A stretch of 64,000 bases of DNA from Cephalotus follicularis. Its lineage: Eukaryota > Streptophyta > Magnoliopsida > Oxalidales > Cephalotaceae. The position numbers were made by a program, and so were the translations under genes. Shown in pieces: positions 2,710 to 56,797 of this stretch (within the stretch, counting starts at the first letter, position 1; each line of letters starts with the position of its first letter). The stretch is taken from contig BDDD01002308.1 of the NCBI GenBank assembly GCA_001972305.1, forward strand, positions 1-64,000. Direction: 5' to 3'. A model generated the notes under the pieces. It saw only the letters and a program-made list of their open reading frames with translations. It was not told the origin of the DNA and searched no databases.

Positions 2710-2710
2710 A

Positions 2711-19212: not shown

Positions 19213-19290
19213 TCGACGCTTGTCACATGGCATCGACGGTAACTAAACAAACAGGAAATCGTCGACGCTATCAAGAAAAGCGTCGACGGT
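19213..19290 (-). repeat. Phased GTCGACGC array in Athila I LTR
   Basis: TCGA starts at 19213, 19233, 19262 and 19283 (steps 20, 29, 21). A looser group follows at 19993-20135, with neighbouring steps of 21 and 30 near its end. It is the same spacing rule as in the Tekay-like LTRs, although Athila is a separate lineage. Confidence 0.75.
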
Positions 19291-20439
19291 TAAGCCACTG
19301 GACTGAGAACTAACAAATTTTTAACACATGCAACTATGACTTATCAAAGCAATAAACTAAAGGGAATAAAACATGCAAATTAAAGTCGGTTTAGGGGTAT
19401 AGAAACTTACCATATATTATATTGAACAACTCACTTACTTAATTGCTCAAACCTTGATAACCAACAGCAGCTAGGTCGATACGGAGTGCGGCTTGATGAC
19501 AAATCGTATAAGTAGTCATGCTAGGTCTTTACGGAGTGTGGCAGCGGTGACAAAATGTATGAGTACACTCCATTGATTGCATTAAAAACCATCCATTCAT
19601 CAATTCTTATTCACTGACAAGATGTTTGTGGATTATAATCAGACAGACAAAGTCTGTGTGAAGGTAGAAAATTGAAGAACAAATCAGAACTTCAAGGATT
19701 TTTATTTATGGAGTTGAATAAATACAATCTATGTTTTGTTCTAACCCCAAAGCATTAAGAGTTTAGCTATTAACCATTGTAAAAATCTAAAGAAAAAGGC
19801 GGCTAAATCTGGCAAAGCTTGTCACTAGCTTGTACCTTTGTATTTGTGACCCAACTCTTCTATTTATACTTACAATCACATGTAAAAACAAAAGGAAATA
19901 AAGTTTTAACCTAATTAATCTAGAAACGAGAATATTAAAATCTGCTAAAACTCTAAAAATTGCTGTTGTTGTCGCCTGATAAGTCGTAAGCGTCGACGCT
20001 TATGACTTTTGTGTTGAGATGCAGTTCACATTGATGTTTAGCATCGACTTGTATATTTCAACTGCAGTGTTAAGCGTCAACGCTATTGAGCAAGGCGTCG
20101 ACACTTTAAATGTGAAGGCAGAAGGTGTTGACGCTTTTCTTGTTGCACGTTAACATTTAAGCTACTGTCTGATTTGTGCAATTTTGGCGTGGAAGACTTG
20201 ATCATTGCGTAGACACCTAAACATTAAATTTCCAACATGTTGATGCCAAATGGATTGGTGTAATACCCTGTTTGTTCGTAAATGTGCTTTACGGACTTTT
20301 ATGTGTGTTTTCGAGCTTTTTAATTTGGTTAATTTTAAAATTCCGGTTGCCCTGTGCTTTGGGCTTATGTGATTTGGGCTGACTGATACCAGTCCAATTT
20401 TGGATATGTAATGATATGTTGGGTTTGGGTCTATTTTAT

Positions 20440-20712
20440 CAAAATTTTATTTCATTAAAACAATTCATTTTTTTATTTTATTTTATACCTTTTATTTTAT
20501 TTATTGTAATTATTTCTTTTTTTCCTTTTATATTTTCTTTTCCTTTTTCTTTTCTTTCTTTTTCTTCTTTCTTTCCTATTCCTTCTTCCTCCTCTCACCC
20601 GAATTTTCCCTCCTCTCATTACTATCACACGTATTCAATCTTCCCATTCCTTATTCTGCCGATTCTGGCCCCCCCTTCTTCCATATGTGGGCAGATTGTG
20701 TCCCCCTTTTTC
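20440..20712. repeat. Pyrimidine-rich low-complexity tract in LTR J
   Basis: About 270 bases made largely of T and C. It opens a long plus-strand frame of Phe, Ser and Pro that I regard as a composition artefact. Confidence 0.8.
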
Positions 20713-21409
20713 CTTTTGTGAGTGTCCTTGCTATTTCTTATATGTGTGTCTCTCCTCTTTGTGAAGCCACTGTCGAATCCTGCCAGTGAGTCTGTGTAAT
20801 CTGCGGTGCAACTGTTTCCTTAAGTCTGAAGAGGTAATCTCGATCCTTTAGTTGTTCTTTGAGTTGAATTCAATTGGTTTTCTAAGTATGTCTTTGTATT
20901 GGTTTTTCTTTTGCCATGTTTTGTTCACAGCCGATTGTGATTGTGTGCTAGTGTTCCTTCTGCTTTTTTCTGTGTCCTTTATACCATTACAGGTCAGTTA
21001 ATTCGTTCCTTTATGTAATGGTTTTGCTGCAATGTGATAATTTGAGTTTTATGCTCTTATTGTCCTTTGGTTTCAATTCCTATATTAATATGTTCTACCA
21101 TTGTGTTGTTAGGACTGTCAACACGTTTTATACACATAGATATGTCATAAACTGGATTTAAGTATCTGTTAAGTGATAATGGATGAAAATTAGACCTGAA
21201 CATATGCATATGCTTAGAAAGTTATATTCTTTCTTCCAAAGCTAAGCCACTGTCCAATTGTTTCTATGTCGATTATGTGTTTCTATGTCACATAAATGCC
21301 ACATATGGTCTTATGTTTGTGTCCATGTGTCTCTGGTTTACTGTTATACTCATTTGAACTCGTTTCTGTATTGAATTGTCGAGTTTGCTGCTGTTCTGTC
21401 GTCCAGAAC

Positions 21410-21614
21410 AGTTGGCTGTTCCCGTGGACAGTCGGCTGGATTGGATGAACAGTCGACTGCCATATGAACACAGTCGACTGTCTTAGGTTGAGTAGTCGAC
21501 TGGACCTATGAACCAGTCGACTGTCTGCGTTCTGGTTTGAGTAGTCCACTGGCCCTTGTGATTAGTCGACTGCCAAGCTTCCCCAGTCGGCTGGTGCTCT
21601 GTAATAGTCGACTG
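21410..21614 (+). repeat. Phased AGTCGACTG array in LTR J, ten units
   Basis: Motif starts at 21410, 21430, 21451, 21472, 21494, 21515, 21543, 21564, 21585 and 21606; steps 20, 21, 21, 22, 21, 28, 21, 21, 21. Most units are AGTCGACTG, some AGTCGGCTG, AGTTGGCTG or AGTCCACTG. The 11-12-bp spacers are all different from each other, so this is not a simple tandem repeat. Confidence 0.9.
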
Positions 21615-22005
21615 TTTTGACCAGAAATGTACTGTTTTCAACTGTTTTGATTCGTTTGTTCCTCGAATCGATCCGAGTCTTTTCCAAACGCTGTTAAGAG
21701 TTTGTTTAATGCTTCTGATGTGTGCTAGACTCTTATACGTATGATTTTGGATTTCTTTTAGATTTTGTGCTTCAAAAGGGAGTTTGTTGTAAGTCACCTA
21801 TTCGTAAGTGCTTTGTGAACGCATAAGGTACGGATTTTCTGTTCCTTGGCTATCTGATGTTTCGAACAGAAAACAGTTTTGCTATGCTTCTTCGTTTATA
21901 AAATTGATAATGTTTTACGGTTTTGACATTAAAGTTGGTTTGACATTTTAAATGATTCAGACTTTATACATATGATATGAAATGTATGATACCGTTGTGA
22001 GCGGT

Positions 22006-24525
22006 TGTCACGCCCCCGTTTTCACTACAAGACAACATATAAAGTGGTAAGGCAATCAACAATGTAATCCAGCTCATTCAAATTTACCAATAAATAAAAA
22101 CCTTTTGAAAGCGGAAGCAATAACATAAATGAGCCAAATTTAAATACGCATCACGCATCCCATACTACGTGATGCCCCAACGAGTTATAACAATTCCCAA
22201 CATTAAAGTCGAACGCCCAAAACGGAGCGTGAAATAACGATACAGTACGAGATAACAATAATAATCCCAAGTTACAATATCCAAATTACATAACCATTGT
22301 TCCTTAATTCGATACATAAAATAAGAGATACTACAAAGTCTTCTCTTTAAGTCTCCAAGCATGCTCCATCTCACAAACCACTCCATCAATCTGTTACAGT
22401 AGGGGTTAGCCTTTGTCCTCACTCGGCTAAGTAGAAAAGATTATGAATTACAGTTTAAGGTCAAGGAAATGCATATCATGAATGAAAGCATAGTGATGCA
22501 GGATGACATGTAATTTTCACAATAAATATATCTCCGTATATACATATATAAAAATATATGCATGTTCACCGTACAAGAATAACACTTTAAGTTGTATCAA
22601 CACAAGCAATAAGTATGTTCCAAAAGGAACCAGACAAACAAGTCGTCCTGACCGTCACCACCTCCTGGCCCCAACGTCAAGTACTCTTACCCCATCCCAT
22701 TTGCGAACGGTTATGAGCAAGTCCTCCGTATGCTGTTTAGCACGATGGCTAACCCAACAGTCTCCGTACTGCACAGCACAATTCAAGCAATAAAGTATAA
22801 TTACTTGATCCAATATATTTTTTAAAAATATATTACTCCGTTCACAAGTTGAAATAAGTTATAAAACTTAAAACAATACATTTGGATTGCGTAGTCAATC
22901 CTTTAAAACAGTTCTCTGTATTTGGGGATACTTCCCCAGCCATTTCGAAAATATATAAAATCATATATTTGACAAATATATATTTTCGTACAATAATGAT
23001 TAAAATAATCATGCAAGCTTTTCAAAATGGTTAACACATTTAGAAATCAACCATAATGCAATTCACAGTAATAATGCAAACATATGCTCAGAATGCACCT
23101 AGGGTTGTTGGTAATTAACCTAGGCTTGTCTCCTTCTCTAAAAATCCCATTTCTGCTGTAATAGTCGGCTGTTTTTCCATAACAGTCGGCTGGACCTTGA
23201 GTCAGTCGACTACTCTTCCCAGGCAGTCGACTTGTTCATCACGAGTACCAGGAAGTCGACTGCCTTCCTTCGACAGTCGACTGTTCTGGGTAATATTGCA
23301 TGCGTAGTCGACTGGTATTACATGCCAGTCGACTGAAAGTTTGAGTAGTCGACTGCTTAAATTGAGCAGTCGGCTGTTCTGGGTTGGACAGTGGCAATAA
23401 CCCACTGTTTATTCACCCAATCAAGCAATTGGAACCTATTCACACGTATTCAAACCTCATAATAACATCAATACTCATACATTGGCCTAGAACACAATTC
23501 AATTCATGCATTATTCTCCGTTTTCATCATAATTCAAATGACAACCAAACATGGCATTGCATGAAAGCCATTCCAATTCTCCATTCAAAATCAGTAAGCA
23601 TGCCAGATTATCTATCAACAATAACCATAACATCAACAATACTGTAATCCACAGTCAAAACAACCGTACCATTCATTTATAACCTCATTTCACTTAAACT
23701 CAAAATGCATGCATAACATTCTCTACACTACCCCTACCTTTGATTTCAAGTTAGAAATCGAAAGTCCACCTCTTTGTGTCTCCTTTCCAGAATCCTTGAG
23801 CTTCCCAGTAGCTCCAAGAACCATCCTGTAGCTTCAATCCAAGCTCCAAGCTTTAACAATGGAGGACCTCTCACTTCCTCGCTATTTCTCTTTTAATTTC
23901 TCACTGTTTTCACTCTCAAACTCTCTGGTACTTTCTTAACAGATTGTAGAGTGAGAGAGACGAAGGGCAGGAAGCATATATGCAGTCCCTTCTCCTTCCA
24001 CCCCTTGCATGGCATAAAAGCCCCTTTCTCTCACAATCACATGCACACACACACACACTTCTCATTTTTTATCTTTTTCTCTGTTCTTGCAGGTCCTGCG
24101 CGTGGTGGTGCATGATCAACACGTCCCATTTATGACCAGATGGCGCCTGCAAGTTGTCTTATCAATGGCTGCATGTGATCTCGTCACATGTAGATAAAAC
24201 AGGGCGCGATCCAGTCGGCTGCCCTTCCTTGGCAGTCGACTGCCTCGCCTGGCAGTCTATTGCCAAGTGTCATGATAGTTGGCCAGTCGACTGGTTTCTC
24301 ACGCCAGTCGACTACCTCCCCCTTAAGTCCAATAGTCTGCTGGAATATTGCACCAGTCGGCTGTCCAGGCCAAAAATCTCCACAATTACACTTAGAATCA
24401 CACTTCCAAATGCTCTAAGTTTAACTTAAACTCAAGATATTAACCAGGAAATTTTCCTTTTATTAATTCAAGGTAAATATTACATCGAGGATTACAATAA
24501 TACATGAAATTGAAATTCCAGGCCC
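22006..24525 (-). repeat. Element B 3' LTR
   Basis: On the minus strand it ends GGGGGCGTGACA at 22006. It holds the shared 42-bp block (22386-22427) and two phased AGTCGACTG arrays (23163-23376 and 24213-24363). The boundary toward pol is placed near 24525 by alignment with the other copy and is approximate. Confidence 0.88.
23163..23376 (-). repeat. Phased AGTCGACTG array, element B 3' LTR, ten units
   Basis: Starts at 23163, 23184, 23204, 23225, 23254, 23275, 23306, 23327, 23347 and 23368; steps 21, 20, 21, 29, 21, 31, 21, 20, 21. The second array in this LTR starts at 24213, 24234, 24254, 24285, 24306, 24334 and 24355; steps 21, 20, 31, 21, 28, 21. Confidence 0.9.
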
Positions 24526-24559
24526 CCTTCAAAGAAATTCGTCCTTGAATTTACATATA

Positions 24560-27500: not shown

Positions 27501-29105
27501 ACTTTGATGCATGGATGAACGATACAATCGGTGTAGAAAACCCCTTGTCTCCCTTAAACTAGAAAGTAGTACCATCGGGTAGACGAAAATCAACCGTCTT
27601 GCTGTAGCAGTCCATGTAAGCATGATGTGCTGACAGCCAATCCATTCCCAAAATAATATCAAAGTCGCGGATAGGCAATACTATCAAATCCGCATACAAG
27701 GAAATGCCTGCGAAAGACATCTCACAACCCCTATATACAGTACCCGTATACATGGAAACTCCGGCAGGTGTGCTTACATCCAAGGTATATGGCATGCTGT
27801 CTGGTGTTGAATCTAAACATGATGCAAAATATGATGATATGAAAGAGTGTGATGCTCCAGGGTCCATCAATACTCTAGCAGCATAACCATAAATATACAG
27901 TGTACCTCCAACAATCGAGGTAGACTCCGGAACCTCTGTCTGTAAAAGGGTAAAAACTCTACCTTTCGCAATGCCCTTGCTGGTGTCCCTTCGCTGTGAA
28001 GGCCCCGCTGCGGCACCACTGCTGCTAGCTGGTCCTGTAGGGGCTGTAGCCTGACTCTTCGGGCAATCTCTCAGGAAATGGCCAGCTTCCCCGCACCTCA
28101 AGCACAGTCCATTCATCCTCCAACAATCCTTCTGTAAGTGGCCCTTCCGACCGCAGTGATAGCAAGCTCCAGTTCCTGCATTACTCCCCTGACTAGGAGT
28201 ACCCTGTGTGCAGTCTGTCCGGATTTGTTCTTCGATGATTTAGTCCGAGAACCACTGCCTTGCCATTTCGAAGATGCTGGTCTCACCGGGCTCTGCTTAT
28301 TCTGTTGTGCCCAGGCCCTCTCTGCTCGGTCCTCACTGGATATGCTCTCCAGCAGCCTCGCCTTTTGAGCGACCTCCGAAAAAGTACCCAGCTCCATAGC
28401 CCTAATCCTCGACCGAAGATCCGGTCACAAACCCTTCAGAAATCTCCGTATCTTTTTTGCGTCATCAGCTACCAGATAGGGTGAATGTCTTGCTAGCTCC
28501 ATAAATCTGGCCTGGTATTCGGCCACTGTCATCTCCCCTTGCCGCAACTCAAGAAGCTCTATCTGCCTCCGCTCTTGCTCAATCCGGGGTACATAGGAAT
28601 TGAGGAACTATGTTTGGAATCTCTCCCATGTAGCATCGAGTCCAACTGACTCCCACTTCGCTTTGACCATCTCCCACTAGTGAGTGGCCTCTCCCCATAG
28701 ACGGTACACGGCAAATTTCAGCTTCTGAGTATCGGTATAGTCCATCACATCAAAAATCTTCTCTAAGTCTTGAAGCCATCTTTCAGCAATCGTAGCATCA
28801 AGCTCTCCCCGGAAGCTAGGTGGATTCTGTCTCATAAACCTCTCGATGTCCCTTCCAAACTGGCTACCATCCTCTCCCGGGCAGCGATCGGGAGCTCTAT
28901 GTTTCGATCGAGCTTGTGCGTAGTACTGGCGCATCTCCTCCGCATTGGCCATATTAAAGGCCATCTGTTGCTGGAAGTAGTCCGCAATCCGGGCCATCAG
29001 GTCCCTATCATCTTGGGGAACATTTACTCCTTGCGGCATATGCATGCCCTCAGGGGCGTTGGCTCCAACAGCCCTAGCCCTACCACGTGTTCTCCTTCGG
29101 TCCAT
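24560..29105 (-). pseudogene. Element B gag-pol polyprotein region (fossil, Tekay chromovirus)
   Basis: Minus strand from 29105. The order is an Arg-rich gag start (MDRRRTRGRARAVGAN), gag core, zinc knuckle CLRCGEAGHFLRDC (near 28100), protease with the GASHSFIS motif (near 27865), RT with [12 protein letters not shown] and FIDDMLVYS (near 26850), RNase H with [11 protein letters not shown] (near 26420), integrase zinc domain (about 25810-25690), catalytic core (about 25630-25320), [14 protein letters not shown] (near 24975), and a chromodomain ending WEREDDIRERYPHLF at 24560. Protein sequence is close to element A. About six interruptions make it inactive. Confidence 0.92.
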
Positions 29106-29207
29106 TTGTTTCTATATGGAAAAGATGTCATTAGTAGTCATCTCAAGGAAGCAATTCGTTAATTGCCAAGGATAGTATCCCAGCGATAGCTTATAAAAGG
29201 AATATAA

Positions 29208-29219: not shown

Positions 29220-30379
29220 CGTTGCCACGCCCCTGTTTTCACAACAAGACAACATATAAAGTGGTAAGGCAATCAACAATATAATCCAGCTCATGCAAAT
29301 TTACTAATAAATAAAAACCTTTTGATAGCAGAAGCAATAACATAATTGAGCCGAATTTTAATATGCATCACGCATCCCATACTACGTGATGCCCCAACGA
29401 GTTATAACAATTCCCAACATTAAAGTCGATCGCCCAAAACGAAGCGTGAAATAACGATACAGTACGAGATAACAATAATAATCCCAAGTTACAATATCCA
29501 AATTACATAACCATTGTTCCTTAATTCAGTACATAAAATAAGAGATACTACAAAGTCTTCTCTTTAAGTCTCCAAGCATGCTCCATCTCACAAACCACTC
29601 CATCAATCTGTTATAGTAGGGGTTAGCCTTTGTCCTCACTCGGCTAAGTAGAAAAGTTTATGAATTACAGTTTAAGGTCAAAGAAATGCGTATCATGAAT
29701 GAATGCATAGTGATGCAGCATGACATGTAATTTTCACAATAAATATATCTCCGTATATACATATATAAAAATATATGCATGTTCACCATACAAGAATAAC
29801 TCCGTAAGTTGTATCAACACAAGCAATAAGTATGTTCCAAAAGGAACCAGACAAACAAGTCGTCCTGACCGTCGCCACCTCCTGGCCGCAACGTCAAGCA
29901 CTCTTACCCCATCCCGTTTGGGAACGGTTAAGAGCAAGTCCTCCGTATGTTGTTTAGCACGATGGCTAACCCAACAGTCTCCGTATTGCACAGCACAATT
30001 CAAGAAATAAAGTATAATTACTTGATCCAATATATTTTTTTAAAATATATTACTCCATTCACAAGTTGAAATAAGTTATAAAACTTAAAACAATACTTTT
30101 GGATTGCGTAGTCAATCCTTTAAAACAGTTCTCCCTATTTGGGGATACTTCCCTAGCCATTTCAAAAATATATAAAATCATATATTTGACAAATATATAT
30201 TTTCGTACAATAATGATTAAAATAATCATGCAAGCTTTTCAAAATGGTTAACACATTTAGAAATCAACCATAATGCAATTCACAGTAATAATGCAAACAT
30301 ATGCTCAGAATGCACCTAGGGTTGTTTGTAATTAACCTAGGCTTGTCTCCTTCTCTAAAAGTCCCATTTCTGATGTAAC

Positions 30380-30614
30380 AGTCGGCTGTTTTTCCATAAC
30401 AGTCGGCTGGACCTTGAGTCAGTCGACTGCTCTTCCCAGGCAGTCGACTGCTCTTCCCAGGTAGTCGACTTGTTCATTACGAGTACCAGGCAGTCGACTG
30501 CCTTCCTTCGACAGTCGACTTTTCTGGGTAATATTGCATGCGTAGTCGACTGGTATTACATGCCAGTCGACTGAATGTTTGAGTAGTCGACTGCTTAAAT
30601 TGAGCAGTCGGCTG
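30380..30614 (-). repeat. Phased AGTCGACTG array, element B 5' LTR, eleven units
   Basis: Starts at 30380, 30401, 30421, 30442, 30463, 30492, 30513, 30544, 30565, 30585 and 30606; steps 21, 20, 21, 21, 29, 21, 31, 21, 20, 21. Compared with the 3' LTR there is one additional 21-bp step near 30442-30463, where a CTCTTCCCAGG spacer is duplicated. Confidence 0.9.
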
Positions 30615-31451
30615 TTCTGGGTTGGACAGTGGCAATAACCCACTATTAATTCACCCAATCAAGCAATTGGAACCTATTCACACGTATTCAAACCTCAGAA
30701 TAACATCAATACTCATACATTGGTCTAAAACACAATTCAATTCATGCATTATTCTCCATTTTCATCATAATTCAAATGACAACCAAACATGGCATTGCAT
30801 GAAAGCCATTCCAATTCTCCATTCAAAATCAGTAAGCATGCCAGATTATCTATCAACAATAACCATAACATAAACAATACTGTAATCCACAGTCAAAACA
30901 ACCGTACAATTCATTTATAACCTCATTTCACTTAAACTCAAAATGCATGCATAACATTTTCTACACTACCCCTACCTTTGATTTCAAGTTAGAAATCGAA
31001 ACTCCACCTCTTTGTGTCTCTTTTCCAGAATCCTTGAGCTTCCCAGTAGCTCCAAGAACCGTCCAGTGGCTTCAATCCAAGCTCCAAGCTTTAACAATGG
31101 AGGACCTCTCACTTCCTCACTATTTCTCTTTTAATTCCTCACTTTTTTCACTCTCAAACTCTCTGGTACTTTCTTAACAGATTGTAGAGTGAGAGAGACG
31201 AAGGGCAGGAAGCATATATGCAGTCCCTTCTCCTTCCACCCCTTGCGTTGCATAAAAGCCCCTTTCTCTCACAATCACATGCACACACACACACACACTT
31301 GTCATTTTTTATCTTTTTCTCTGTTCTTGCAGGTCCTGGCGTGGTGGTGCATGATCAACACGTCCCATGTATGATCAGATGGCGCCTGCAAGTTTTCTTA
31401 TCAATGGCTGCATGTGATCTCGTCACATGCAGATAAAATAGGGCATGATCC

Positions 31452-31602
31452 AGTCGGCTGCCCTTCCCTGGCAGTCGGCTGCCTCGCCTGGCAGTCAGTT
31501 GCCAAGTGTCACGACAGTTGGCCAGTAGACTGGTTCCTCACGCCAGTCGACTGCCTCTCCCTGAAGTCCAACAGTCGGCTAGTATATTGCACCAGTCGGC
31601 TG
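31452..31602 (-). repeat. Second phased array, element B 5' LTR
   Basis: Starts at 31452, 31473, 31493, 31524, 31545, 31573 and 31594; steps 21, 20, 31, 21, 28, 21, identical to the 3' LTR copy at 24213-24363. Confidence 0.85.
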
Positions 31603-34882: not shown

Positions 34883-34884
34883 AG

Positions 34885-43600: not shown

Positions 43601-43746
43601 GAAATCATAAACAATTTACAAACAGTAACCAAACAGGCAGTAAACAGTGTATATGCAATGCATACAAATGCTCTAATTCATCCTAAGTGAAATCGGGATC
43701 GTCGGGTATCAAAACCGTAAAATTGTCCAAATAGGACTCTAAAGCG

Positions 43747-43938: not shown

Positions 43939-45301
43939 GTGTAGGGGTCGTCTTCTACCTCACGACATGAGCGAACGGTGACATTCCCATAACAGTAACA
44001 TGCAATCCAACATGTATAAAGCCCAGAAAATGGCCATGCAATATCATATGACGTATCCAGTACAAGGTAGCATCATTTCAGTGACTAAAAACGGATCATC
44101 ACACTATGAAATTCATGCATAAACATCACTGAACAAACACCAAGTATTGAACACAAAATACAATTATGGCTTCCCCTACCTCTGGCCTCAAGTTAGAAGC
44201 TGAAAGTCCACCTCTTTTAGTATCCAATCAGTCACTTGAGTCCCCAGGTACGGCTTGAAAGCTCCGTAGTTCATCTCAGCAATTGGTGTGCAAGCTTCCA
44301 GCTCCCTTTGCTCAACAATGGTGGTTGAGCTTCCTCTCTCAAGTTCTCCTGCTCTCTTTTGTCACTCACAGTGTCACTGACCCTCTAGCTTTCCGTATCA
44401 GATGAGAGAGGTGAGATGAGTAGACTTTTTATGCAGATTTCATATGTTTTCTCTGCATGTTCTCCTAACTTCTCCTCCTCTCTCAATTTGGTAACATGGT
44501 GCAACAGGTGTCGCTTTCTTCCCTTTCACAGGCCATGCACTCAGGGACTCTCCCTTTGTCCCATACCCTTTTGTTGTAGGTAATTCTAGCATTAAGGGCA
44601 TGCATGCCACGTTCTTAAAGTGCCTGCTACGATGCTTGAAAAGTGTCATGAAATCACCTTCCTGCGACACGTCCATCTGCTGTTATGTGTATGCATAACA
44701 CGTCGCAAAGCATCGATGTTTACATACAGGCGTCAGCGCTTATGTGTTTAAAATTAAGCGCGCGTTTCAACGGCTTAAGTGTCGATGCTCTAAATCCAGG
44801 CGTCAGCGTTTTAACCTAAAAACTGTGCCATTTTCGATTTAATCTTACTCTCTTAACATTTCTCTAGCATTCTTTCTCCAAATCGACATTACAAGGGTTT
44901 GGAAAACACCATCAAAGTCAGAAATCCATCTTTTTATTAATTCCACAATAAAGTACATTTACATTGTGAAATTACAACACATGAAACCTGTAACGCCCCG
45001 AATTTCATAAATAATTATTATGAAATTGGTGCGTGTACAGTCGTGATAAAATCGATAGAGCCCGGAGTAATAAAAAGGCATTACGCATTTAAGTTGTAAT
45101 CGTGTTAGTTAAGACGGCTAATAAAACCTATTTTTAATACGCGACAATAAAGCCCGAATGCTCGCAATATTATTGTGATTATTTTGGTGGTCGTGTGGAT
45201 AAATTATGTTGGGTTTCGCAGAAAAATCGTGACCCATACCTTAGTGTTTTACCAGAAAATACTAAGGAGGAAGCAAAGAATAAAGGAAGGGAGAGACCAC
45301 A

Positions 45302-45357
45302 CACGGGCGCATCACGCGCCCGTGCAAGAAAAGAACTACAGGCGCACAAAGCGCCTG
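45302..45357 (+). other. Two adjacent GC-rich inverted repeats in the E LTR
   Basis: First stem CACGGGCGC/GCGCCCGTG (45302-45310 with 45316-45324), loop ATCAC. Second stem CAGGCGC/GCGCCTG (45339-45345 with 45351-45357), loop ACAAA. Both stems are perfect. LTR G keeps both positions with altered bases (52638-52694); the second E copy keeps only the first (48933-48955, one end mismatch). Confidence 0.75.
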
Positions 45358-46309
45358 CACCTGGGAGTGATAGCGAGAGAGAGTGGGAGAGAGACTGGAG
45401 CAGAGGGAGAGAGGCGACGCCGGAGCCAGCCACCGGACCAGGAGAGCGCGGTGGTCAACCCAGGCACGCCACCAACCGCTAAGCTCTTCCCCCTTCTTGT
45501 TTCTCTTCTCTTTTTCTTCTCCTCGGACATCACTGTGCGCGCCTCTTCCCGGCGTTTCCCAACGCCGTTAGCGTCACGGGTGGCCTGGGTTTTGGTGTAG
45601 ATGGCTAGCTCTTGCCATTTTGATCACTGGTGAGGTGTGATTTAGCCAGAAACGGCCGGAATCAGTTGAATGAGTCGACTCACTGACGCCTTAGACCGCG
45701 CGTTTAGCGCTGAGTCTTGGCGAGTCACGGGCATGGGTGTGTATAACTGGTGGGTGTGTGGCATTTTTGGGTGGTGATCAGACCTGTGGAGGTCCAGCGA
45801 GTTGACTCAGTGAGTCACAACTCACTGCCGGCCGTGGCGTGGTGTTCGGCGCCGATTCACGGTGAGTCTTTACCGGTTTTGAGTAGACCGTTCAATGTGG
45901 AACCCGTTGATGGGTGTTTCATCGCCTGGTTGTGTCGGTCGGAATCCGGCTGGGATTTCGGCGACGGAAATATTTTGTTTGTCGAACATAACGGAAATGT
46001 GTTGTATGTGCAGTGTGTAAGCGGCGATTGGATTTGGCAGTGAAGAAATGATCAATTGGCGAGAACAGGGTTCGGTTCAACGATTTCTGGGAGAGGTTCG
46101 GCAATTGAACCTGCGGCTCGACTGTGCTGGTGTTACTGCGATTCCTAACTTGGAATCAAAGGTAGGGGAAAGTGATGAATTTATACATGCTACGGAGTTA
46201 ACTTGCATGTGTAAATTACATGAATATTGAACTGGGTTGTGTATGGATGATTTTGATCATGGCTTGCTATGTTAAAGCTGTGGAGAAAACGTTCTGGGTT
46301 GGATAGACA

Positions 46310-46790
46310 TCGAAGTCTACATGAAGACGTCGATGCCTTCGTGTGAAAACGTGAAAGACGTCGATGCTTGAGTAAAGACATCGATACCTTTTCTGGGCTT
46401 TATATAATAGTAGTGTTATGCCTTCGTGTGTGAATGCGAAAGACATCGATGTCTTTTGAGAGACATCGACGCCTTTTCTGGGTATTGCAGAACAGTAGTG
46501 TCCACTGTTGTCGGTTAATTGCCCTTGGAATTACATGTTTATGCATGAAATGATGTTCTGGTTATGTTCCTATTAACCAGTAGCATGCCTTAGACGTTGA
46601 GAGAGTGAGATTAGTTACATGAAGGATTAAAAGGCCGGATTCTACCCTCCAGAATCAAGACTCGTGAACTGATACTCTCTGGTATCATAAAGACATCGAC
46701 GTCTTTGGTCCAAGAACGCCTGGGAATATTTGTACATGGGATCGACGCCTCAGTGTGAAGACGTCGACACCTTAGGGATAGACATCGACG
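46310..46790 (+). repeat. Phased ATCGACGC array in the E LTR
   Basis: TCGA starts at 46310, 46330, 46361, 46381, 46446 and 46466 (steps 20, 31, 20, 65, 20), then 46696, 46742, 46764 and 46785 (46, 22, 21). Units read GACATCGACGCCTTT or GACGTCGATGC. The second LTR copy has the equivalent array near 50020-50525. Confidence 0.75.
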
Positions 46791-47466
46791 CCTTTCCCCC
46801 AATCAGTAGAATTTCACTCGAATGGGACTCGCTAGACCCAAAACGACTCTAGGAACGATTCTAGACGCATTGTGAGCATATGTTGCATTTTTACTATAAT
46901 TTGCATTATGGTCGCTTTCTAAAAGTGTTAACCAGTTTGAAAAGCCTGTATGATTATAATAATCATTTTGTACAAAAATGTATATTTGTTAACATATGAA
47001 TTTATATATTTTCGAAATGATTGGGGAAGTATTTCCAATGACGGAGAAATGTTTTAAAGGGTTGATTTTGAAACCAAATGTATTGTGTAAAAATGTATAT
47101 TTGTCAACATATGAATGTATATATTTTTGCAATGATTGGGGAAGTAATTCCAAAGATAGAAATGTATTGTTTTAAGTTTTATAACTTATCACAACTTGTG
47201 AATGAAATTAATATATTTTAAACAAATATATTTGATCAAGTAATTATATATTATTGCTTGACTTGTACTGTGCAATGCTTGTTCCTGTTGATTATTAGCC
47301 GTCGTGCTAATAACTTGTTGATTACTTAGCCACTGTGCTAGTAACTTGCTGTTGGTTTAGCCGCCGTGCTAAACAACTTACGGAGGACTTGCTCCAAAAC
47401 CGTTTGCAAATGGGGATGGAGTAAGAGTGCATGGCATTGGGGCCAGGAGGTGGCGATGGTCATGAT

Positions 47467-47637
47467 GATTGGTTTGTCTGGTACCTTTTCGGACATATTT
47501 ACTGCTTGTGTTGATATAACTTATGAGTTATACTTGTACTGTGAACATGACGATTGGTTTGTCTGGTTCCTTTTGGGACATATTTACTGCTTGTGCTGAT
47601 ATAACTTATGAGTTATACTTGTACTGTGAACATGACG
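47467..47637 (+). repeat. 85-bp tandem repeat, two units, E first copy
   Basis: Units start at 47467 and 47552 with GATTGGTTTGTCTGG. The sequence changes to the reversed F-type piece at the point where a third unit would begin. Confidence 0.85.
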
Positions 47638-48715
47638 AGAATGATAGAAAAGGTAACAATTACTACCGGCGTTGGCGGGTAGTTTAACAGTGATTTCTGC
47701 AATTGCAGACAGTAGGTGATACTCTGGCCAACTCCTGGCCCCCAGAATCACATCCATAGTCAGTGATAACCTCCATCACCGAACTACGGCAGTAAGCATA
47801 GACAATCAATTCAATCAGTACAATCAGTAATAATATTACATATATAATTTATATGCAATATCGAATGTTTTCTTTGGAAACATGTATCAGTTCAGTAATC
47901 GTGCATCTCATGTGAGGAAACGATATCAGTACAGTAGTGGTTTCCAATTCGGAAACAAAATAGTAGTTACCTCTCATGTGGAGGAAAAATCAGTAGTTAT
48001 TTGACATTAAGCATTCTTTTGAAAATGATAGTAAATATCGTAATTTTTGGTACAAAGACCATAGATGGTTTCAATCTTTGAATTTATCAGTAGTAGTGGT
48101 GTTAATAGCACCAAACAGTAGGTATATACTAACATAAGTATCATATATAGTAACATTAATCAAAACAGTAGTTCTTGTAAACAATAACTTTCACTTGAAA
48201 TGGTGTTTAAGCTATAATTTGTGCATATAGCACATAATTCGTTCGATCAGTGAAATATCAGTAATAATGATGTTAATTAACATCAAACATTGGATACTAT
48301 ATGATGGTATCATATACAAATCAATAGCAATGCAAAATAGTAGCAATTCAATGAATTATTATGCAGTTGCAGCCTAGAACAGTCGGCTGCCCTCAAGAAC
48401 CAGCCGGCTGTTGAGTTGAGTAGTCGACTGCTTTCAATGGCAGTCGACTGTTTTTGCCCAGAAATGCAGGCAGAACAGTTTATGTATAGTGCAATTCAAT
48501 GCCAATTCAGTTCAATGCAAGTAGAAAGTAACATACACGAAATGCATGATCATATCTTCCAAAACATAACACTACCCCTACCTCAATTTGCTATCCCAAG
48601 ATCAATTGTGTGATCTTTCTCTTTAAATCTTCCAAGGTCTTTTCCAAGCTTTCTCCAATCAATTCTTTAATCTTAGCAGGTTCAATCTATACATGCATGT
48701 TTATGGATACATGCA
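47638..48715 (-). repeat. F-type LTR fragment in reverse between the E copies
   Basis: On the minus strand this aligns with parts of solo LTR F (about 17600-18540): the alternating GAGGAAAC-type blocks, the CCAACTCCTGGCC block near 47730 and the AGTCGACTG motifs at 48381, 48402, 48422 and 48442 (steps 21, 20, 20). It lacks both F termini. Confidence 0.75.
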
Positions 48716-51700
48716 GCATTTAAGTCGTAATTGCGTTAGCTAAGACGGCTAATAAAACCTATTTTTAATGCGCGACAGTAAAGCCCGAATGCTCGCAATA
48801 TTATTGCGATTATTTTGGGGGTCGTTTGGATATATTATGTTGCATTTCGCGAAAAAATCGGGACCCGTACCTTAGTATTTTACCAGAAAATACTAAGGAG
48901 GAAGCAAAGAATAAAGAGAGGGAGAGACCACACACGGGCGCATCACGCGCCCGAGCAAGAACACCTGCACCTGGGAGAGATAGCGAGAGAGAGTGGGAGA
49001 GAGATCGGAGCAAAGGGATAAAGGCGACGCCGGAGCCAGCCACCGGACCGGGAGAGCGCGGTGGTCAACCCAGGCACGCCGCAGACCGGGAAGCTCTTCC
49101 CCCTTCTTCTTTCTTTTCTCTTTTTCTTCTCCTCGGATGTCACTGTGTGCGCCTCTTCCCGGCATTTCCCAGCGCCGTTAGCATCGCGGGTGGCCTGGGT
49201 TTCGGTGTAGATGGCTAGCTCTTGCCATTTTGACCACTGGTGAGGTGTGATTCGGCCGAAAACGGCCGGAATCAGTTGAATGAGTCGACTCAGCGAGTCG
49301 ACTCACAGCCGCCTTGGACTGCGCATTTAGCGCCGAGTCTTGGTGAGTCACGGGCATGGGTGTGTATAACTGGTGGGTGTGTGGCATTTTTGGGTGGTGA
49401 TTGGACCTGTGGAGGTCCGACGAGTTGACTCAGTGAGTCACAACTCGCTGTCGGCCGTGGCGCGGTGTTCGGCATCGATTCCCGGCGATTCTTGACCGGT
49501 TTTGAGTACACCGTTCAATGTGGAACCCGATGATGGGTGTTTCATCGCCTGGTTGTGTCGGTCAGAATCTGGCCGGCGTTTCGACGACGGAAATAATTTG
49601 TGTGTCGAACATAACGGAAATGTGTTGTATGTGCAGTGTGTAAGCGGCGATTGGATTTGGCAGTGAAGAACTGATCAATTGGCGAGAACCGGGTTTGGTT
49701 CAACGGTTTCTGGGAGAGGTTCGGCAATTGAACTTGCGGCTCGACTGTGCTGTTGTTACTGTGATTCCTAACTTGGAATCAAAGGTAGAGGAAAGTGATG
49801 AATTTATACATGCATTTTTGGTTTTAAGTTTATGAATACCATTGATGATTGCATGTTAATGGGTGAATTGTGATTCTGGACATGTTGTGGTGATTTCAGT
49901 GATATACGGAGTTAACTTGCATGTGTAAATTACATGAATATTGAACTGGGTTGTGTATGGATGATTTTGATCAAGGCTTGCTATGTTAAAGCTGTGGAGA
50001 AAACGTTCTGGGTTGGATAGACATCGACGTCTACATGAAGACGTCGATGCCTTCCTGTGAAAACGTGAAAGACGTCGATGCTTGAGTAAAGACATCGATG
50101 CCTTTTCTGGGCTTAATATAACAGTAGTGTTATGCCTTCGTGTGTGAATGCGAAAGACATCAATGTCTTTTGAGAGACATCGATACCTTTTCTGGGTATT
50201 GCAGAACAGTAGTGTCTACTGTTGTAAGTTAATTGCCCTTGGAATTACATGTTTATGCATGAAATGATGTTCTGGTTATGTTCCTGTTAACCAGTAGCAT
50301 GCCTTACATGTTGAGAGAGTGAGATTCGTTACATGAAGGATTAAAAGGCCGGATTCTACCCTCCAGAATCAAGACTCGCGAACTGATACTCTCTGGTAAA
50401 GACATCGACGTCTTTGTAAAGACATCGACGTCTTTGGTCCAAGAACGCCTGGGAATATTTGTACATGGGATCAATGCCTTAGTGTGAAGACGTCGACGCC
50501 TTAGGGATAGACATCGACGCCTTTTCCCCTGATCAGTAGAATTTCACTCGAATGGGACCCGCTAGACCCGAAACGACTCTAGGAACGAATCTAGTCGCAT
50601 TCTGAGCATATGTTGCATTTTTAATGTGATTTGCATTATGGTCGCTTTATAAAAGTGTTAACCATTTTGAAAAGCCGGTATGATTATAATAATCATTTTG
50701 TACAAAAATGTATATTTGTTAACATATGAATTTATATATTGTCGAAATGATTGGGGAAGTATTTCCAATAACGGAGAAATGTTTTAAAGGGTTGATTTTG
50801 AAACCAAATGTATTGTGCAAAAATGTATATTTGTCAACATATGAATGTATATATTTTCGGAATGATTGGGGAAGTATTTCCAAAGACAGAAATGCATTGT
50901 TTTAAGTTTTATAACTTATCACAACTTGTGAACGGAATAATATATTTTAAACAAATATATTTGATCAAGTAATTATATGTTATTGCTTGACTTGTACTGT
51001 GCAATGCGTGTGCCTGTTGATTATTAGCCGCCGTGCTAATAACTTGTTGATTACTTAGCCACTGTGCTAGTAACTTGGTGTTGGTTTAGCCGCCGTGCTA
51101 AACAACTTACGGAGGACTTGCTCCAAAACCGTTCGCAAACGGGGATGGAGTAAGAGTGCATGACGTTGGGGCCAGGAGGTGGCAACGGTCATGACGATTG
51201 GTTTGTCTGGTTCCTTTTGGGACATATCTACTGCTTGTGTTGATATAACTTATGAGTTACACTTGTACTGTGAACATGATGATTGGTTTGTCTGGTTCCT
51301 TTTGGGACATATTTACTGCTTGTGCTGATATAACTTATGAGTTATACTTGTACTGTGAACATGACGATTGGTTTGTCTGGTTCCTTTTGGGACATATTTA
51401 CTGCTTGTGTTGATATAACTTATGAGTTATACTTGTACTGTGAACATGCATATATTTTTATATGTACATGCGGAGATAAAATTACTGTGAAAATTACATG
51501 TCGTATTGCATCATAATGCATTCATTCATGATACTCATTATCATATGACTCGAACTGTATTTATGGGTTTATTCACTTAGCCGAGTGAGGACAAAGGCTA
51601 ACCCCTACTGTAACAGATTGACGAAATGGATATGAGATGGAGCATGCATGGAGACTTAAAGAGAAGACTGTGTAGTTTCTCTTATTTCTTGTACTGGGTT

Positions 51701-51991
51701 AATGAACAATGATTATGTAATCGGATTTTGTAACATGGGTTATTTTATTATCTCGTACTGTATTATCACGCTCCGTTTGGGCGATCGACAATTATGCAGG
51801 GTTTTGTATAAACTTGTTGGGCATCACGTAGTATGGGATGCGTAATGCGTGTTTAAATACAACTTGTTTAAGTTATTGCTTCCGCTACTGAAGGTTTTTA
51901 TTTATTCGTTTTATCGCATGAGCTGAATTATCTTGTGTTGATTGCCTTACCACTTTATATGTTGTCTTGTCGTGAAAACGGGGGCGTGACA
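48716..51991 (+). repeat. E-type LTR, second copy
   Basis: It begins in GCATTTAAGTCGTAATTGCG, about 95 bases into the LTR compared with the first copy, and runs to the true end GGGGGCGTGACA. It contains three 85-bp units, the shared 42-bp block (51580-51621), and an end segment closely related to the element B LTR. Confidence 0.88.
51196..51450 (+). repeat. 85-bp tandem repeat, three units, E second copy
   Basis: Units start at 51196, 51281 and 51366 and are nearly identical, indicating recent expansion or homogenisation. Confidence 0.88.
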
Positions 51992-52058
51992 AAACCCTGG
52001 GCATTACATGAACCCTAATTCCCTAAGTGTTCTAGCCCTTTTTAAAACCAATTCAACA

Positions 52059-52694: not shown

Positions 52695-53909
52695 ACACCC
52701 AAGAGAAAGCGAGAGAGCGGGAGAGAGAGAGAGAGAGGAGTTGGGCGCGTCGGCGACGACGACAGCACCAGACAAAGAGCTCTCCGGTCAAAGCCTCCAT
52801 CATCGACGGTATGCCTCCTTTCCTCTTCTATTATCTTTTCTTCTCTTTTTTCTTTCCCTTCTCCATGACGCCTTGCATCACTGTCGCAGTTGTCGTGCAT
52901 TCCACCGCTGGTAATTGTCGCGGGTCGTGATGGTCTTCACCTAGAAGGTCGGCTACACCTATTTCAGTGACCGATTAGGCGCCATTCAGTCAGAATCGAC
53001 CGGATTCCTGTTGCCGAGTTGACTCAGAGAGTCCAACTCGCTGCCGCCTATGACCGCGTGATTAGCGCCAAGTCTCGACGATTCTCGAGCAGTGGTGTGC
53101 TGAACTGATGGTTGCGTGGCGTTTTTGGGTGGTGAACTGAGATGTTGGAGTCCAGCGAGTCGACTCAGTGAATCGAACTCACTGCCGGCTCTGAATGTGT
53201 GATTCACGGTGAGTTACGGCGATCCCCCGGCAGCATTGTATAGATCACCCAATTTGGAGACTGATTATGGCGTGGCCGGATCCCCAATGGGTTGGCCGGA
53301 ATCTTGTCAGAACTCCGGTGATGACAATGTGTAATTGCTACCTGTGTGTAGATCGTAACGGAATGTGTTAGTTATCGCAATGATGTTAAAAGAGAAAGAG
53401 AGCTATGTTTACACAAGATGGAGATGTGCTCGTGACAACGAGTGAAGCTTAGAGGAGGTGGCTGTTCCTGGATTCCACTGCAAATCCTCCCAAGTCGTAG
53501 CTCCATTGGTAACAGGTAGTGTACACATTGCTTCGATGGTACATCCTCAGATGACTATTGCTTGATCCCTTTCATATATACCAGTATGGGACGGTAGTAT
53601 ACGAATGGTAGATCACTACAGTAGGTTATACTACTTGCATTGCATTCATGCATTCTAAATGGTTATATGGATTGATATGTGTACAAATTGTAAATGTATG
53701 GATGCATGATTGTATATATATACATACGAATATACGGATGGATGTGCATATTACATAAGGGTTAGATATTGAATTGAGAGGAGATGAGTTCTTGCCTTCT
53801 CTCAATTTACTGGCTATGGGATGAATCTTAGAAGGGCTTTGAACTGTTTTGGATATGGTTTTCATTGAATTGTGAACTGTTTTGCAAAACGATATTTCTA
53901 CCAAAACCA

Positions 53910-54045
53910 TCAACGCTTTCTTCTTAACTGTCGATGCTTTTATGTCTTAAGCCAAACAGTCGATGCCTTTTGCTTTCAAACAAACCGTTGATGCTTTATA
54001 CTTATGCTTTTTAATACTGTCGACACCCCGGGCTAAGCATCGACG
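53910..54045 (+). repeat. Phased GTCGATGC array in LTR G
   Basis: Core starts at 53910, 53931, 53960, 53988, 54020 and 54040; steps 21, 29, 28, 32, 20. The units are TCAA, TCGA or TTGA with a following GCTTT. Confidence 0.7.
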
Positions 54046-54259
54046 CTTAGTGCCCTGTTTTAGTTAAACTCAACTGTTTTATATGGTGTTGATCCGAAAT
54101 GGGTCCCTATACAAATGGATTTCATAGGAAGCCTCCCTAAGGCCTTATAGCATATGAAAATCCTCTTGAGACATTTTTAAACTACGGATCAATCTCCAAA
54201 ATGAATCTTTAAAGAAAGTTCCATAAAAAAAAGGGGATTTTATACAAATGGTTTTAAAA

Positions 54260-54410
54260 AATGGTTAGGATAGTTCCATTGGGATATCTGGACGCGGATA
54301 TCTTTTTTGGACTTCCTCTCCATTGTTTTATGCATTTCAAATGGTTATGATAGTTCCATTGGGACATTCAGACGCGAATACTCCCATTTGGACTTCCTTT
54401 CCATTCATTA
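54260..54410 (+). repeat. 80-bp tandem duplication in LTR G
   Basis: Two units start with AATGGTTAGGATAGTTCC-like sequence at 54260 and 54340. They differ at several sites. Confidence 0.75.
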
Positions 54411-54706
54411 TAACTTCGATAGGAACCAACCAAATGATATATGAAAATTGATTACAAAATGGAATATGGAAACGAAAATGGCCATTGAATATGAAAAATG
54501 ATTTATGACTACGAAATTGATTTTACATTATTTGACGGATGTGGATCCATGAGATCCTTTACAAATGGTTCCTATCATTTAAAAGCATACATGATTTTGG
54601 GTCACAACTACGGGATGGATTATTGATTGTATTGTATGAGACCATCGAGGTAACCCATTTCTGACTTTCATCTCCGTCGTGAACGTCATGAATGTTAGAC
54701 CACAGT

Positions 54707-54915
54707 TTACCCCATATTGTGATGCGAACCATACAAAAGTGCTTACCTCACATTGTGGTTGACCGTTCTGTATTGTCCTTACCTCACATTGGGATACGGA
54801 CCATACAAAAGAGCTTACCTACATTGTGATGCAGACCATTATGTACAGAACTTATCTCACATCGTGGTACGGACCATACAAAAGATCTTACCCCACGTTG
54901 TGAGAGAACCGACAT
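54707..54915 (+). repeat. 36-bp minisatellite in LTR G, six units
   Basis: TTACCTCACATTGTG-like starts at 54707, 54743, 54779, 54815, 54852 and 54888 (steps 36, 36, 36, 37, 36), mostly followed by GGACCATACAAAAG or a decayed form of it. Adjacent units differ in the middle. Confidence 0.85.
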
Positions 54916-55171
54916 GAATTATGATACAACCCTGTGGTCAGTGTTATCTCATTCCTCACACCTCCATGGAACCAAAAGTGCATCGAGGGTGGGATGGACC
55001 CTATGCACTCATTGTCCCTATGATTGATATGGATTGTTATATGGATTGTCTGTAGGCCTATGGCCTTTAATATGACATTAGGACTAGCTGAGTATACCAC
55101 TGCTTAGGGATAGTTGGTATACAGAAGCTCTCCGCACTTAACATTTATGCACATAGCATGCCATACACACA

Positions 55172-55310
55172 CATACTGTGATACGGTTATATTACATGAC
55201 ATACTATGATGCAGCTACATTACGTGCCATACTATGATACGGTTGCATTACATGGCATACCGCTATACCGGTTACATTACATGATATGTTGTTATACTGT
55301 TGCATTGCAT
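55172..55310 (+). repeat. 28-bp minisatellite in LTR G, about five units
   Basis: CATACTATGATACGGTTGCA-like units start at 55172, 55200, 55228 and 55256, with a decayed unit following. Spacing is 28 bp. Confidence 0.8.
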
Positions 55311-55399
55311 GGAATTTAATATAGCTTTCCGCCATACGGATTGTACGGTTGCGATTATAGATCGAATGGTTACGAATCATACGGTTATGGAACGGTGAT

Positions 55400-56797
55400 T
55401 GTTTAGCATAAAAATGTGTTGTTTTTAATGATTTAGTTGTGATATTTTTATGCTTGGAATAGACTACTTTGGTTGTGTTATATTGATTTTTAGGTATAAG
55501 AGCAAAAGGGAAAAAGTGCATGAATACTACCCAAAGTTGTGCAAATTGTAGCTTGAAAGATTAAAGATTGAAGAATTGACAAATTCTGCAGAAACAGAGT
55601 TAAACGCATCGATGTATTTCATGAGGATTGATGTCTTTTTTGGGTTTGTGAGAAACGCGTCGATGTCTTTTGTTGCGGATCGATATCCTTTCTGGGATTG
55701 CAAGCCTACCTTCAAATGCTATGAGAAAGACATCGATGTCTTTCACTAAACGCATCGATGTCTTTATGAAATTTCAACCTGTAGATTTTGGACCAAAACG
55801 CATCGACGTCTTCTCAATAACATTGATGTCTTTCATCTCAGCAAAACACGACTCTTTGCAAACGCGTCGACGTCTTCTTCTGCAGCAGAAATAGAAAGTT
55901 GGATTTTTTTTCCAGATTTTCTAACTAGGATTGATTTATTTCCATTTTTGATCAGTTTTGTAGTATAAAAACAATGCAAGGCCGGTAAAATTCAGAGAGA
56001 GGCTGGTAGAAACCCTATTTTCTTCTTTATAAATTTTATTTTACAATGTTTAGTAGCTAAACTCTTTAAGATTTTTGCGTTAGAACAAAGCCTAGATTGT
56101 TATTGTTTCAATTCCATCAATAAAAATCCTTGAAAATTTGATTTGTCGTTCAATTTTTTTGCCTTCACACACACTTTGTCTGTCTGATTAAAATCCACAA
56201 ACATCTTGTCGATGAATATGAAAGTTGGTGAATAAATGGTGCTTAGTTCAATCAATGGAGTCTACTCATACAGTTTGTCACAACGAACACACTTCGTATA
56301 GACCTAGCATGTCTACTCATACGTCTTGCCGCCATTGCCGTACTTCGTATCGACCTAGCATGACTACTCATACGTCTTGTCATCACCATTGCACTCCGTA
56401 TAGACCTAGCTACCGCTGGTTATCAAGGTATCATCATTCAATTAAATGGAATTATTCAATACAATCTATGGTGAGTTTCTATACTCTAAAACCGCTTTTT
56501 AATTATAGATTTTCTTCACTTTTCTTCATTGTTTTGATTAGTTTTAAAATTGCATGCTTTATTTCTTGGTGTTTTAAATTCAGTGTCTTTGATCATCGAC
56601 GCCTTCCTTTCCTGTTTTGATTATTTAAATTATTTTGCATAATTAATAGAAGTTTTCATAATTAAACCTTGAATTTGCATACTTCGCCTAGGTTGGATAA
56701 ATTACAACCAGTTTAACGTTTCCCTATGTTCGACTCGTTACTACATGATCTGTGCACTTGCGGCTATAAATTTTAAAACATTCTTTTTACGTGAACA
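55400..56797 (+). repeat. Athila II 5' LTR
   Basis: About 1.4 kb, TGTTTAGCAT to CGTGAACA. Both ends align with the Athila I LTR ends at 33038 and 16543. It has a phased motif array at 55609-55875 and three short CATACGTCTTG/CGTATCGACC-like units near 56280-56400. Confidence 0.88.
55609..55875 (+). repeat. TCGA motif array in Athila II LTR
   Basis: Core starts at 55609, 55628, 55660, 55680, 55733, 55755, 55803, 55823 and 55867; steps 19, 32, 20, 53, 22, 48, 20, 44. Pairs about 20 bp apart are clear; the distances between pairs are looser. Units read CGCATCGATGTCTTT. Confidence 0.7.

Follow-up and report, generated by a model that had tools for sequence, protein, structure and literature searches.

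The closest described counterparts of the sequence arrays reported here are the repeated motifs in the long terminal repeats (LTRs) of Sireviruses. According to the portions of the description available to us, these motifs are palindromic, occur in at least 8 and up to 32 copies per element, are found chiefly in the upper LTR half, upstream of a TATA box, and resemble one another between distant hosts whose LTRs otherwise have little in common (PMC2829016, Bousios et al. 2010). The same portions describe them as Sirevirus-specific and absent from classic copia elements; 12 of 13 bear a CGG-CCG signature, and two of the 13 listed, Vitis CGGTCGACCG and Tnd-1 ACAATCGATTGT, are centred on TCGA. 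Here, we describe arrays of TCGA-centred palindromes in the LTRs of Tekay- and Athila-type Ty3/gypsy retrotransposons of the plant Cephalotus follicularis. They lie in a 64,000-nucleotide stretch (contig BDDD01002308.1, positions 1 to 64,000, hereafter the window), and all evidence on them comes from this one 64-kb window of one host.

Like the Sirevirus motifs, the sites are palindromic and reach at least 8 copies in LTRs A5, E2, D5 and the LTR of Athila 2 (the elements are lettered as in the list of elements below). They differ in having a TCGA core and no CGG-CCG signature, in being carried by Tekay- and Athila-type Ty3/gypsy elements and not by Ty1/copia Sireviruses, and in falling into two classes with many neighbours spaced 20-22 bp apart. 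Because the core and the lineage do not agree, we do not class the arrays as Sirevirus repeated motifs, although they probably work like them.

Other systems share single features with the arrays, as far as the accessible parts of the respective papers go. The LTRs of Del (Tekay) elements have a variable CpG-rich region in their 5' half that was proposed to be a moving target for silencing (PMC4029996, Cruz et al. 2014); no such 5' CpG island was found in the eudicot group of that study, and words beginning with "palindrom" or "tandem" are absent from its main text as available to us. The targets of VANC proteins in VANDAL transposons carry the motif YAGTATTAY, which is rare in other transposons (PMC5735166, Hosaka et al. 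2017). There, as here, a short motif is arrayed in non-coding DNA, grows in tandem and differs between close relatives (class 2 in our element D, class 1 in E), but VANDALs are DNA transposons encoding their own VANC; the domains recognised in our elements A and D are those of gag-pol, and some frames there have no Pfam match. Heat-responsive elements were gained in several COPIA families (PMC5059998, Pietzenuk et al. 2016), which provides a parallel for the repeated gain of one host factor's sites in LTRs; those are nGAAn heat-shock sites with a measured heat response, whereas our arrays are known from sequence alone. Finally, a maize palindrome, CACCGGACNNNGTCCGGTG, occurs in both Copia elements and Helitrons (PMC10760457) and thus is also a single palindrome in unrelated transposon superfamilies of one host, although its sequence and host are different and it was studied in the context of RNA structure. 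Among the literature matches listed, judged by titles and abstract openings and with subscription papers mostly outside the search, there was no report of TCGA palindrome arrays common to Tekay and Athila; a search with AGTCGACTG gave no related work among the matches listed, judged by title.

The repeat unit of the arrays is a palindrome of 10-18 bp centred on TCGA, with conserved flanks of the core. This corrects the original prediction, which spoke of a phased TCGA motif. The class 1 site has the form AAAGACRTCGAYGYCTTT in A, B and E, AAACGCRTCGAYGTCTTT in Athila 2, and AAGCGTCGACGCTT and variants in Athila 1, while the class 2 site, CAGTCGACTG, is present in D, G, H and fragment I. Region F contains mixed forms, with one or three matrix hits depending on the matrix used. 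The arrays are located as follows.

5803-5965, plus strand: class 1 array a of LTR A5, partly decayed
6720-7050, plus strand: class 1 array b of LTR A5, AAAGACRTCGAYGYCTTT sites with several pairs 20-22 bp apart
13268-13430, plus strand: class 1 array a of LTR A3
14185-14516, plus strand: class 1 array b of LTR A3
16837-16908, 17665 and 17748, LTR on the plus strand: class 2 or related sites of H
19210-19290, minus strand: array of the Athila 1 LTR near the LTR 3' end, AACCGTCGACGCTTTT and AAGCGTCGACGATTT
about 19990-20135, minus strand: another array of the Athila 1 LTR, with AAGCGTCGACGCTT and its variants, approximately at the position of the main Athila 2 array
21430-21612, no strand assigned: class 2 array in region G
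23203-23375 and 24212-24360, LTR on the minus strand: class 2 arrays of LTR D3
30380-30612 and 31451-31600, LTR on the minus strand: class 2 arrays of LTR D5
43768-43912 and 44713-44785, LTR on the minus strand: class 1 sites of LTR B
46307-46795, plus strand: class 1 arrays of E copy 1
48383-48447, fragment on the minus strand: class 2 sites of fragment I
50020-50520, plus strand: class 1 arrays of E copy 2, in which 50396-50436 is a perfect 20-bp duplication absent from copy 1
53905-54045, plus strand: weak mixed-form sites of region F, without significant excess
55605-55875, plus strand: class 1 array of Athila 2, AAACGCRTCGAYGTCTTT

Matrix hits number 13 in A5, 10 in E2, 15 in D5 (class 2) and 8 in Athila 2. 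The other counts are lower, with 5 in B, 4 or 8 in Athila 1 depending on the matrix, and 3 each in H and I. The hits occupy the first 55% of A5 (at about 190-330 and 1105-1417 of 2751) and of D5 (at about 170-310 and 1177-1385 of 2545); one of the Athila 1 arrays, by contrast, is near the LTR 3' end. In Athila 2 the last core of the array ends 94 bp upstream of TATAAAAA at 55964; no agreed TATA was found in the Tekay LTRs. The two Athila arrays originally predicted at 19213-19290 and 55609-55875 are both present, and the second array of Athila 1 had been missed. To the left of all these arrays, in an unassigned region right of an LTR 3' end (1-250), divergent repeats with TCAGCGCTTA- and TCGACGCTTT-like units occupy positions 500-830 and are possibly a decayed class 1 array; there is no significant TCGA excess over shuffles in 251-3565.

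The window contains 269 TCGA tetramers against 170 expected (standard deviation 12), a number reached by none of 100 shuffles. Regional excess was tested on TCGA pairs at 19-23 bp with 500 dinucleotide shuffles per region, in 23 regions (some overlapping) and then in 7 with improved borders, which separate H from the Athila 1 LTR. The pair excess is significant (P<0.02) in A5, A3, B, D3, D5, E and both E copies, the middle part of E, the left part of G and both Athila LTRs; the Athila 1 LTR (19098-20400) has 9 TCGA against 2.9 expected, with 2 pairs. In the same shuffles none of five interiors (A, C, D, Athila 1 and Athila 2) has a pair excess, including that of D, where TCGA itself is in excess (27 against 16.2, P=0.012), and none is seen in 31767-33084, the right part of G, the window start or 53271-55400 (one pair, P=0.054). 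The TCGA arrays thus exist and clearly exceed chance expectation in most LTRs of the original prediction (A, B, D, E, G and both Athila, but not F by counts; its LTR J could not be matched to a region and may be H or I), which is partly confirmed as an observation and partly supported in its interpretation.

When all TCGA pairs in the window are considered, lags 20 and 21 stand out with 17 and 16 pairs, respectively. TCGA is twelfth among tetramers in enrichment at lags 19-23, and some of those ranked higher overlap TCGA in the same sites (GTCG, ATCG, CGAC, AGTC). When sites are defined tolerantly in 17 hand-picked stretches, with each element represented by one LTR copy, gaps of 20-23 bp make up 37 of the 67 between neighbours, and the other 30 range from 13 to 82 bp.

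The two classes of sites are well separated, and class 1 is predictable from one lineage to the other. Matrices were built from 18 class 1 sites of A5, B and E2, from 8 Athila sites, and from 12 class 2 sites of D5 and G; the threshold is passed about once per 64 kb in five chunk-wise shuffles, and all hit counts include training sites. The Tekay-trained class 1 matrix gives 65 hits. LTRs A, B and E account for 49 of them, with training sites and sister copies counted, and the Athila LTRs for 12; one is in F and three are elsewhere (in S2, the C interior and the Athila 2 interior). With the Athila-trained matrix there are 66 hits, of which A, B and E hold 44, the two Athila LTRs 16 (training sites included), F three, and an Athila 3 fragment, H and the Athila 2 interior one each. 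All 42 hits of the class 2 matrix are in D3, D5, G, H and I, where the Tekay-trained class 1 matrix gives none and the Athila-trained one a single hit, in H. These distributions indicate that the classes hardly mix within an LTR and that class 1 is common to both lineages. They bear out the earlier claim that the exact form of the motif differs by family.

The similarity between the lineages is confined to the sites. Before masking, the arrays are the only places where the Athila 2 LTR has matches to LTRs A and E, and the Athila 1 LTR matches no Tekay-type LTR. Once 9 bases either side of each exact TCGA are masked, no similarity between the Athila and Tekay LTRs is left at a cutoff of E 0.05, as originally claimed, nor is there any spacer similarity between E and A in the array region. 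Within class 2 arrays the same contrast is seen between neighbours: in 10 adjacent pairs picked by exact TCGA alone, the six flanking bases are 85% identical, while ten bases of spacer in the same pairs are 24% identical against 26% in shuffled sequence. A wider class 2 pattern gives 17 pairs with 89% identity in the site, part of which is fixed by the pattern itself, and 25% in the spacer. One class 2 pair does have an identical spacer, and this pair is the extra 21-bp unit of D5 relative to D3; similarly, E2 is longer than E1 by one perfect 20-bp unit. The extra units of 20-21 bp, taken with spacers at chance identity, suggest that units arise by duplication and that sites outlast spacers.

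This conservation does not extend to the time after insertion. Among 29 array cores aligned between the sister LTRs of A, D and E, which are 95-96% identical overall, 19 agree and 10 differ by substitution against about 16% expected (P=0.014), so the cores change faster than average and are not specially stable once inserted. Such poor stability would make the persistence of sites between families more telling.

Near relatives can differ in the class of site. LTRs D and E are 79-87% identical over long blocks of their 3' part and also share a short block upstream of the arrays, whereas the central segment (D3 about 833-1418, E 4838-5596) is unmatched outside the arrays, which are of class 2 in D and class 1 in E. 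The difference can be due to a module swap or to turnover. The presence of different classes at the same place means that site form within Tekay does not simply follow kinship. In a tree of the last 251-414 bp of the LTRs (8 rows), two class changes are needed, and one change suffices in 16% of 200 bootstrap trees; in this tree H and S have long branches and E stands beside D without support.

Self-comparison resolves the window as a nest of plant LTR retrotransposons, with LTR pairs of A, C and D, the duplicated LTR E, and single LTRs or fragments B, F, G and H. The elements are as follows.

5623-8373, plus strand: LTR A5 of element A, starting with TGTAACGCC and ending with TGTGACA, with a tRNA-Met type primer binding site (PBS) at 8378
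9811-11919, plus strand: interior of element A with RVT_1, RNaseH and integrase zinc domain
12223-13041, plus strand: chromodomain of element A, a Pfam domain match
13090-15838, plus strand: LTR A3 of element A, 95% identical to A5
16632-19097, plus strand: H, a solo Tekay-type LTR inside Athila 1, with the target site duplication AAATT seen by eye
19098-20400, minus strand: Athila 1 LTR, with the region border used in the shuffle test
21430-21612, no strand assigned: array side of region G, which is LTR-like only and is split by element D, its other side starting from 31767
22005-24527 (24527 approximate), minus strand: LTR D3 of element D, from self-comparison
29222-31766, minus strand: LTR D5 of the Tekay-type element D, with the target site duplication GCGGT seen by eye and a PBS at 29219
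42429-44987, minus strand: Tekay-type LTR B, 79% identical to LTR A in the 3' half of B
44988-51992, plus strand: Tekay-type LTR E, a head-to-tail duplicate with copies 45085-47638 and 48716-51367 flanking fragment I
47639-48715, minus strand: fragment I inside E, partly similar to LTR H in inverted orientation
from 52325, plus strand: region F, 66% identical to the start of E
55400-56800 (borders approximate), plus strand: 5' LTR of Athila 2, with the PBS TGGCGCCG at 56804

Elements A and D are of chromovirus type, with reverse transcriptase (RT), RNaseH, integrase parts, a chromodomain and the tRNA-Met type primer site; in A the order is protease, RT, RNaseH and then integrase, plus the chromodomain. 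The combination of chromodomain, RT and long LTRs (2.5-2.75 kb) is that of Tekay (Del) chromoviruses. The chromodomain is recognised by SH3_Tf2-1 and Chromo, with Chromo in D under the Pfam cutoff (22 against 25.1 bits). No Pfam domain beyond gag-pol is recognised in A or D; frames without a match remain where gag should begin (8409-8978 and 28680-29111). The C pair (33085-34837 and 40698-42428) is 87.6% identical and CpG-poor and encloses a 5.9-kb interior, two frames of which (37043-37663 and 39634-40011) were tested and have no Pfam match. Two Athila-type elements lie at the window ends, the first being minus-oriented and interrupted by A and the solo LTR H; in Athila 2, gag lies at 57469 and protease at 58825, and a stretch of RT shares 37% identity with the RT of A. 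We use Tekay and Athila as putative lineage names, which are consistent with the features of the elements; the name Athila rests on gag, protease and the PBS TGGCGCCG, which we assume to be typical of Tat/Athila.

Several other features of the LTRs were observed. The end of D3 (24508-24527), which adjoins the polypurine tract, lacks the terminal TGTAACGCC present in D5 and in other Tekay-type LTRs. In the 3' part of LTR E, a tandem repeat with an 85-bp unit (47461-47638 and 51190-51448) differs between the LTR copies, with about two units against three. A block, CTTAGCCGAGTGAGGACAAAGGCTAACCCC, is conserved about 350-415 bp before the 3' end of the Tekay-type LTRs A, B, D, E and H, which are otherwise difficult to align, and is also present at 1-47. 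At the right end of the window, downstream of an integrase piece of Athila 2, there is a 15-bp tandem repeat, CCGAGGAGGACATGC, at 63850-63996.

The best explanation of these observations, to which we would give about even chances on sequence grounds, is that the arrays, which occupy mainly the upstream part of the LTRs, act as cis-regulatory modules bound by a dimeric DNA-binding protein of the host. Each TCGA-centred palindrome would be bound by a dimer, and sites 20-22 bp, i.e., about two helical turns, apart would put two dimers on the same face of the DNA and allow joint binding, presumably in the service of transcriptional activation. The plant is the most likely source of this protein, because the same factor would have to serve both Tekay and Athila, which have no other detectable LTR sequence in common, and because only gag-pol domains are recognised in the Tekay elements A and D. 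Arrays would grow by duplication of single units of 20-21 bp, after which selection may keep the sites while the spacers drift, and would decay after insertion. Two alternative specificities, corresponding to class 1 and class 2, would be in use, and a Tekay LTR could change between them. That the class 2 palindrome is kept while its spacers are at chance identity is as expected if a trans-acting factor maintains the sites. The original prediction, which weighed spread of the motif between elements against its repeated gain under a host factor and leaned to gain, is partly supported: the confinement of similarity to the sites, the family-specific forms of the motif and the contrast between class 2 sites and spacers are in its favour, and very old inheritance, or exchange followed by loss of all but the sites, may be the alternative to repeated gain. 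A more specific version, which we put forward tentatively and regard as rather doubtful, is that a single dimeric host protein, or a pair of paralogues with two specificities, reads TCGA-palindrome sites that unrelated Ty3/gypsy lineages took up independently and arranged in two-turn pairs, with Tekay LTRs switching codes as a unit.

As for the identity of such a protein, no plant factor with a GTCGAC palindrome was found in the literature searched. DREB/CBF sites (the C-repeat/dehydration-responsive element) were considered and rejected since the Athila 2 sites at 55609, 55733 and 55755 have no YCGAC on either strand and most sites contain TCGA; CCGAC is present in 9 of 29 class 2 sites. Candidate relatives outside the window were not convincing either: an RT piece gave three pattern matches in viral contigs and no relative by tblastn, and array patterns found in viral contigs (3 and 22 stretches) and genome contigs (2) were taken as chance matches. 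Only 2 of 27 outside loci match the window at E 1e-3, one (L026) over 32-33 bp, which is the pattern itself, and the other (L020) over 61 bp.

Several observations weigh against the host-protein explanation. Half-sites show no compensatory pattern, so a strictly symmetric protein site is not supported. Class 1 positions -1/+4 are symmetric in 32 and asymmetric in 37 of 73 strand-wise readings, in which one site may enter two times. Many class 1 sites have unlike halves (GACA on the left, CGCC on the right), which might not be expected of a strict dimer site. The remaining 30 neighbour gaps have no significant 10.4-bp helical phase (P=0.11); the phasing at 20-22 bp originally predicted thus holds for neighbours and not for the other gaps, and the sites form pairs or short runs two helical turns apart with no single rigid lattice. 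The comparison of sites and spacers covers class 2 only, for class 1 sites nearly fill the 20-bp step, and CpG deaminations account for only 4 of the 10 core differences between sister LTRs (direction of change not polarised). Excess is borderline in LTR H (8 TCGA against 3.7 expected, one pair, P=0.03), not significant in region F (15 against 10.6, P=0.10; one pair, P=0.15), and in shuffles of both copies of LTR C there is no excess of pairs; C is older and CpG-poor, and therefore its arrays were possibly lost. The restriction to a single window of a single genome counts on the same side.

An unlikely alternative origin of the shared sites is the exchange of LTR modules, by template switching or gene conversion, which would have moved arrays between lineages and left only the sites recognisable. 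The D/E comparison, with an unmatched array-bearing central segment as if replaced next to 3' blocks of 79-87% identity, is what such an exchange would produce, and the array of E does resemble that of A (91% over 45 bp; 68-69% over 115-121 bp). Yet masking leaves no similar spacers, whether Athila is compared with Tekay or the array region of E with that of A, and the Athila and Tekay site forms differ. Purely neutral growth of tandem repeats, in which slippage of a 20-21 bp unit generates the arrays and the common TCGA core is coincidental, would explain the unit that differs between the sister LTRs of D and of E and the several neighbours that form Tandem Repeats Finder (TRF) arrays of period 20-21. 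It is already disfavoured, and we consider it very unlikely: between neighbouring class 2 sites the spacers are no more alike than chance, in contrast to the conserved flanks of the core; sites of one lineage are predicted by a matrix from the other; and a CpG, which mutates faster than any other step in methylated plant DNA, lies in the conserved part.

The sites might instead act in RNA or in silencing, with palindromes forming hairpins in LTR transcripts that serve as sources of small RNAs or as targets of RNA-directed DNA methylation. All five array RNAs fold better than the shuffle mean (z -4.9, -6.9, -2.7, -4.2 and -5.0), the fold of the Athila 2 array RNA being matched by 1 of 100 shuffles, and in maize, according to the available parts of two studies, small RNAs map to the palindrome-rich parts of Sirevirus LTRs (PMC5311732, PMC10760457). 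Any repeated palindrome, however, yields such z-scores, hairpins do not need a spacing of 20-22 bp, and exact 21-nt phasing is absent, lags 20 and 21 being about equally frequent. Half-site changes without compensation do not support an RNA hairpin as the selected feature, and this possibility seems quite unlikely to us. We regard as highly improbable a mechanism of VANC-like anti-silencing, whereby a protein encoded by some element of this genome would bind the arrays and remove methylation, and the change of class would reflect co-evolution of the protein with its target. As in VANDAL targets (PMC5735166, in the portions available), a short motif is densely arrayed in non-coding parts, the arrays grow in tandem and the motif differs between the close relatives D and E. 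However, only gag-pol domains are recognised in A and D, some frames having no Pfam match, and the factor would have to act across lineages, whereas VANCs are described in those portions as element-specific.

If the more specific version given above is true, the independent uptake of a host protein's sites by unrelated retrotransposons would amount to a regulatory code that the host imposes on them and that can be read from LTR sequence alone. In one genome, two unrelated Ty3/gypsy lineages carry arrays designed like the Sirevirus motifs but built on a different core, which suggests that what they have in common is the host's reader of the sites. The short, concrete list of sites and the difference in class between D and E give a handle for identifying this reader protein.

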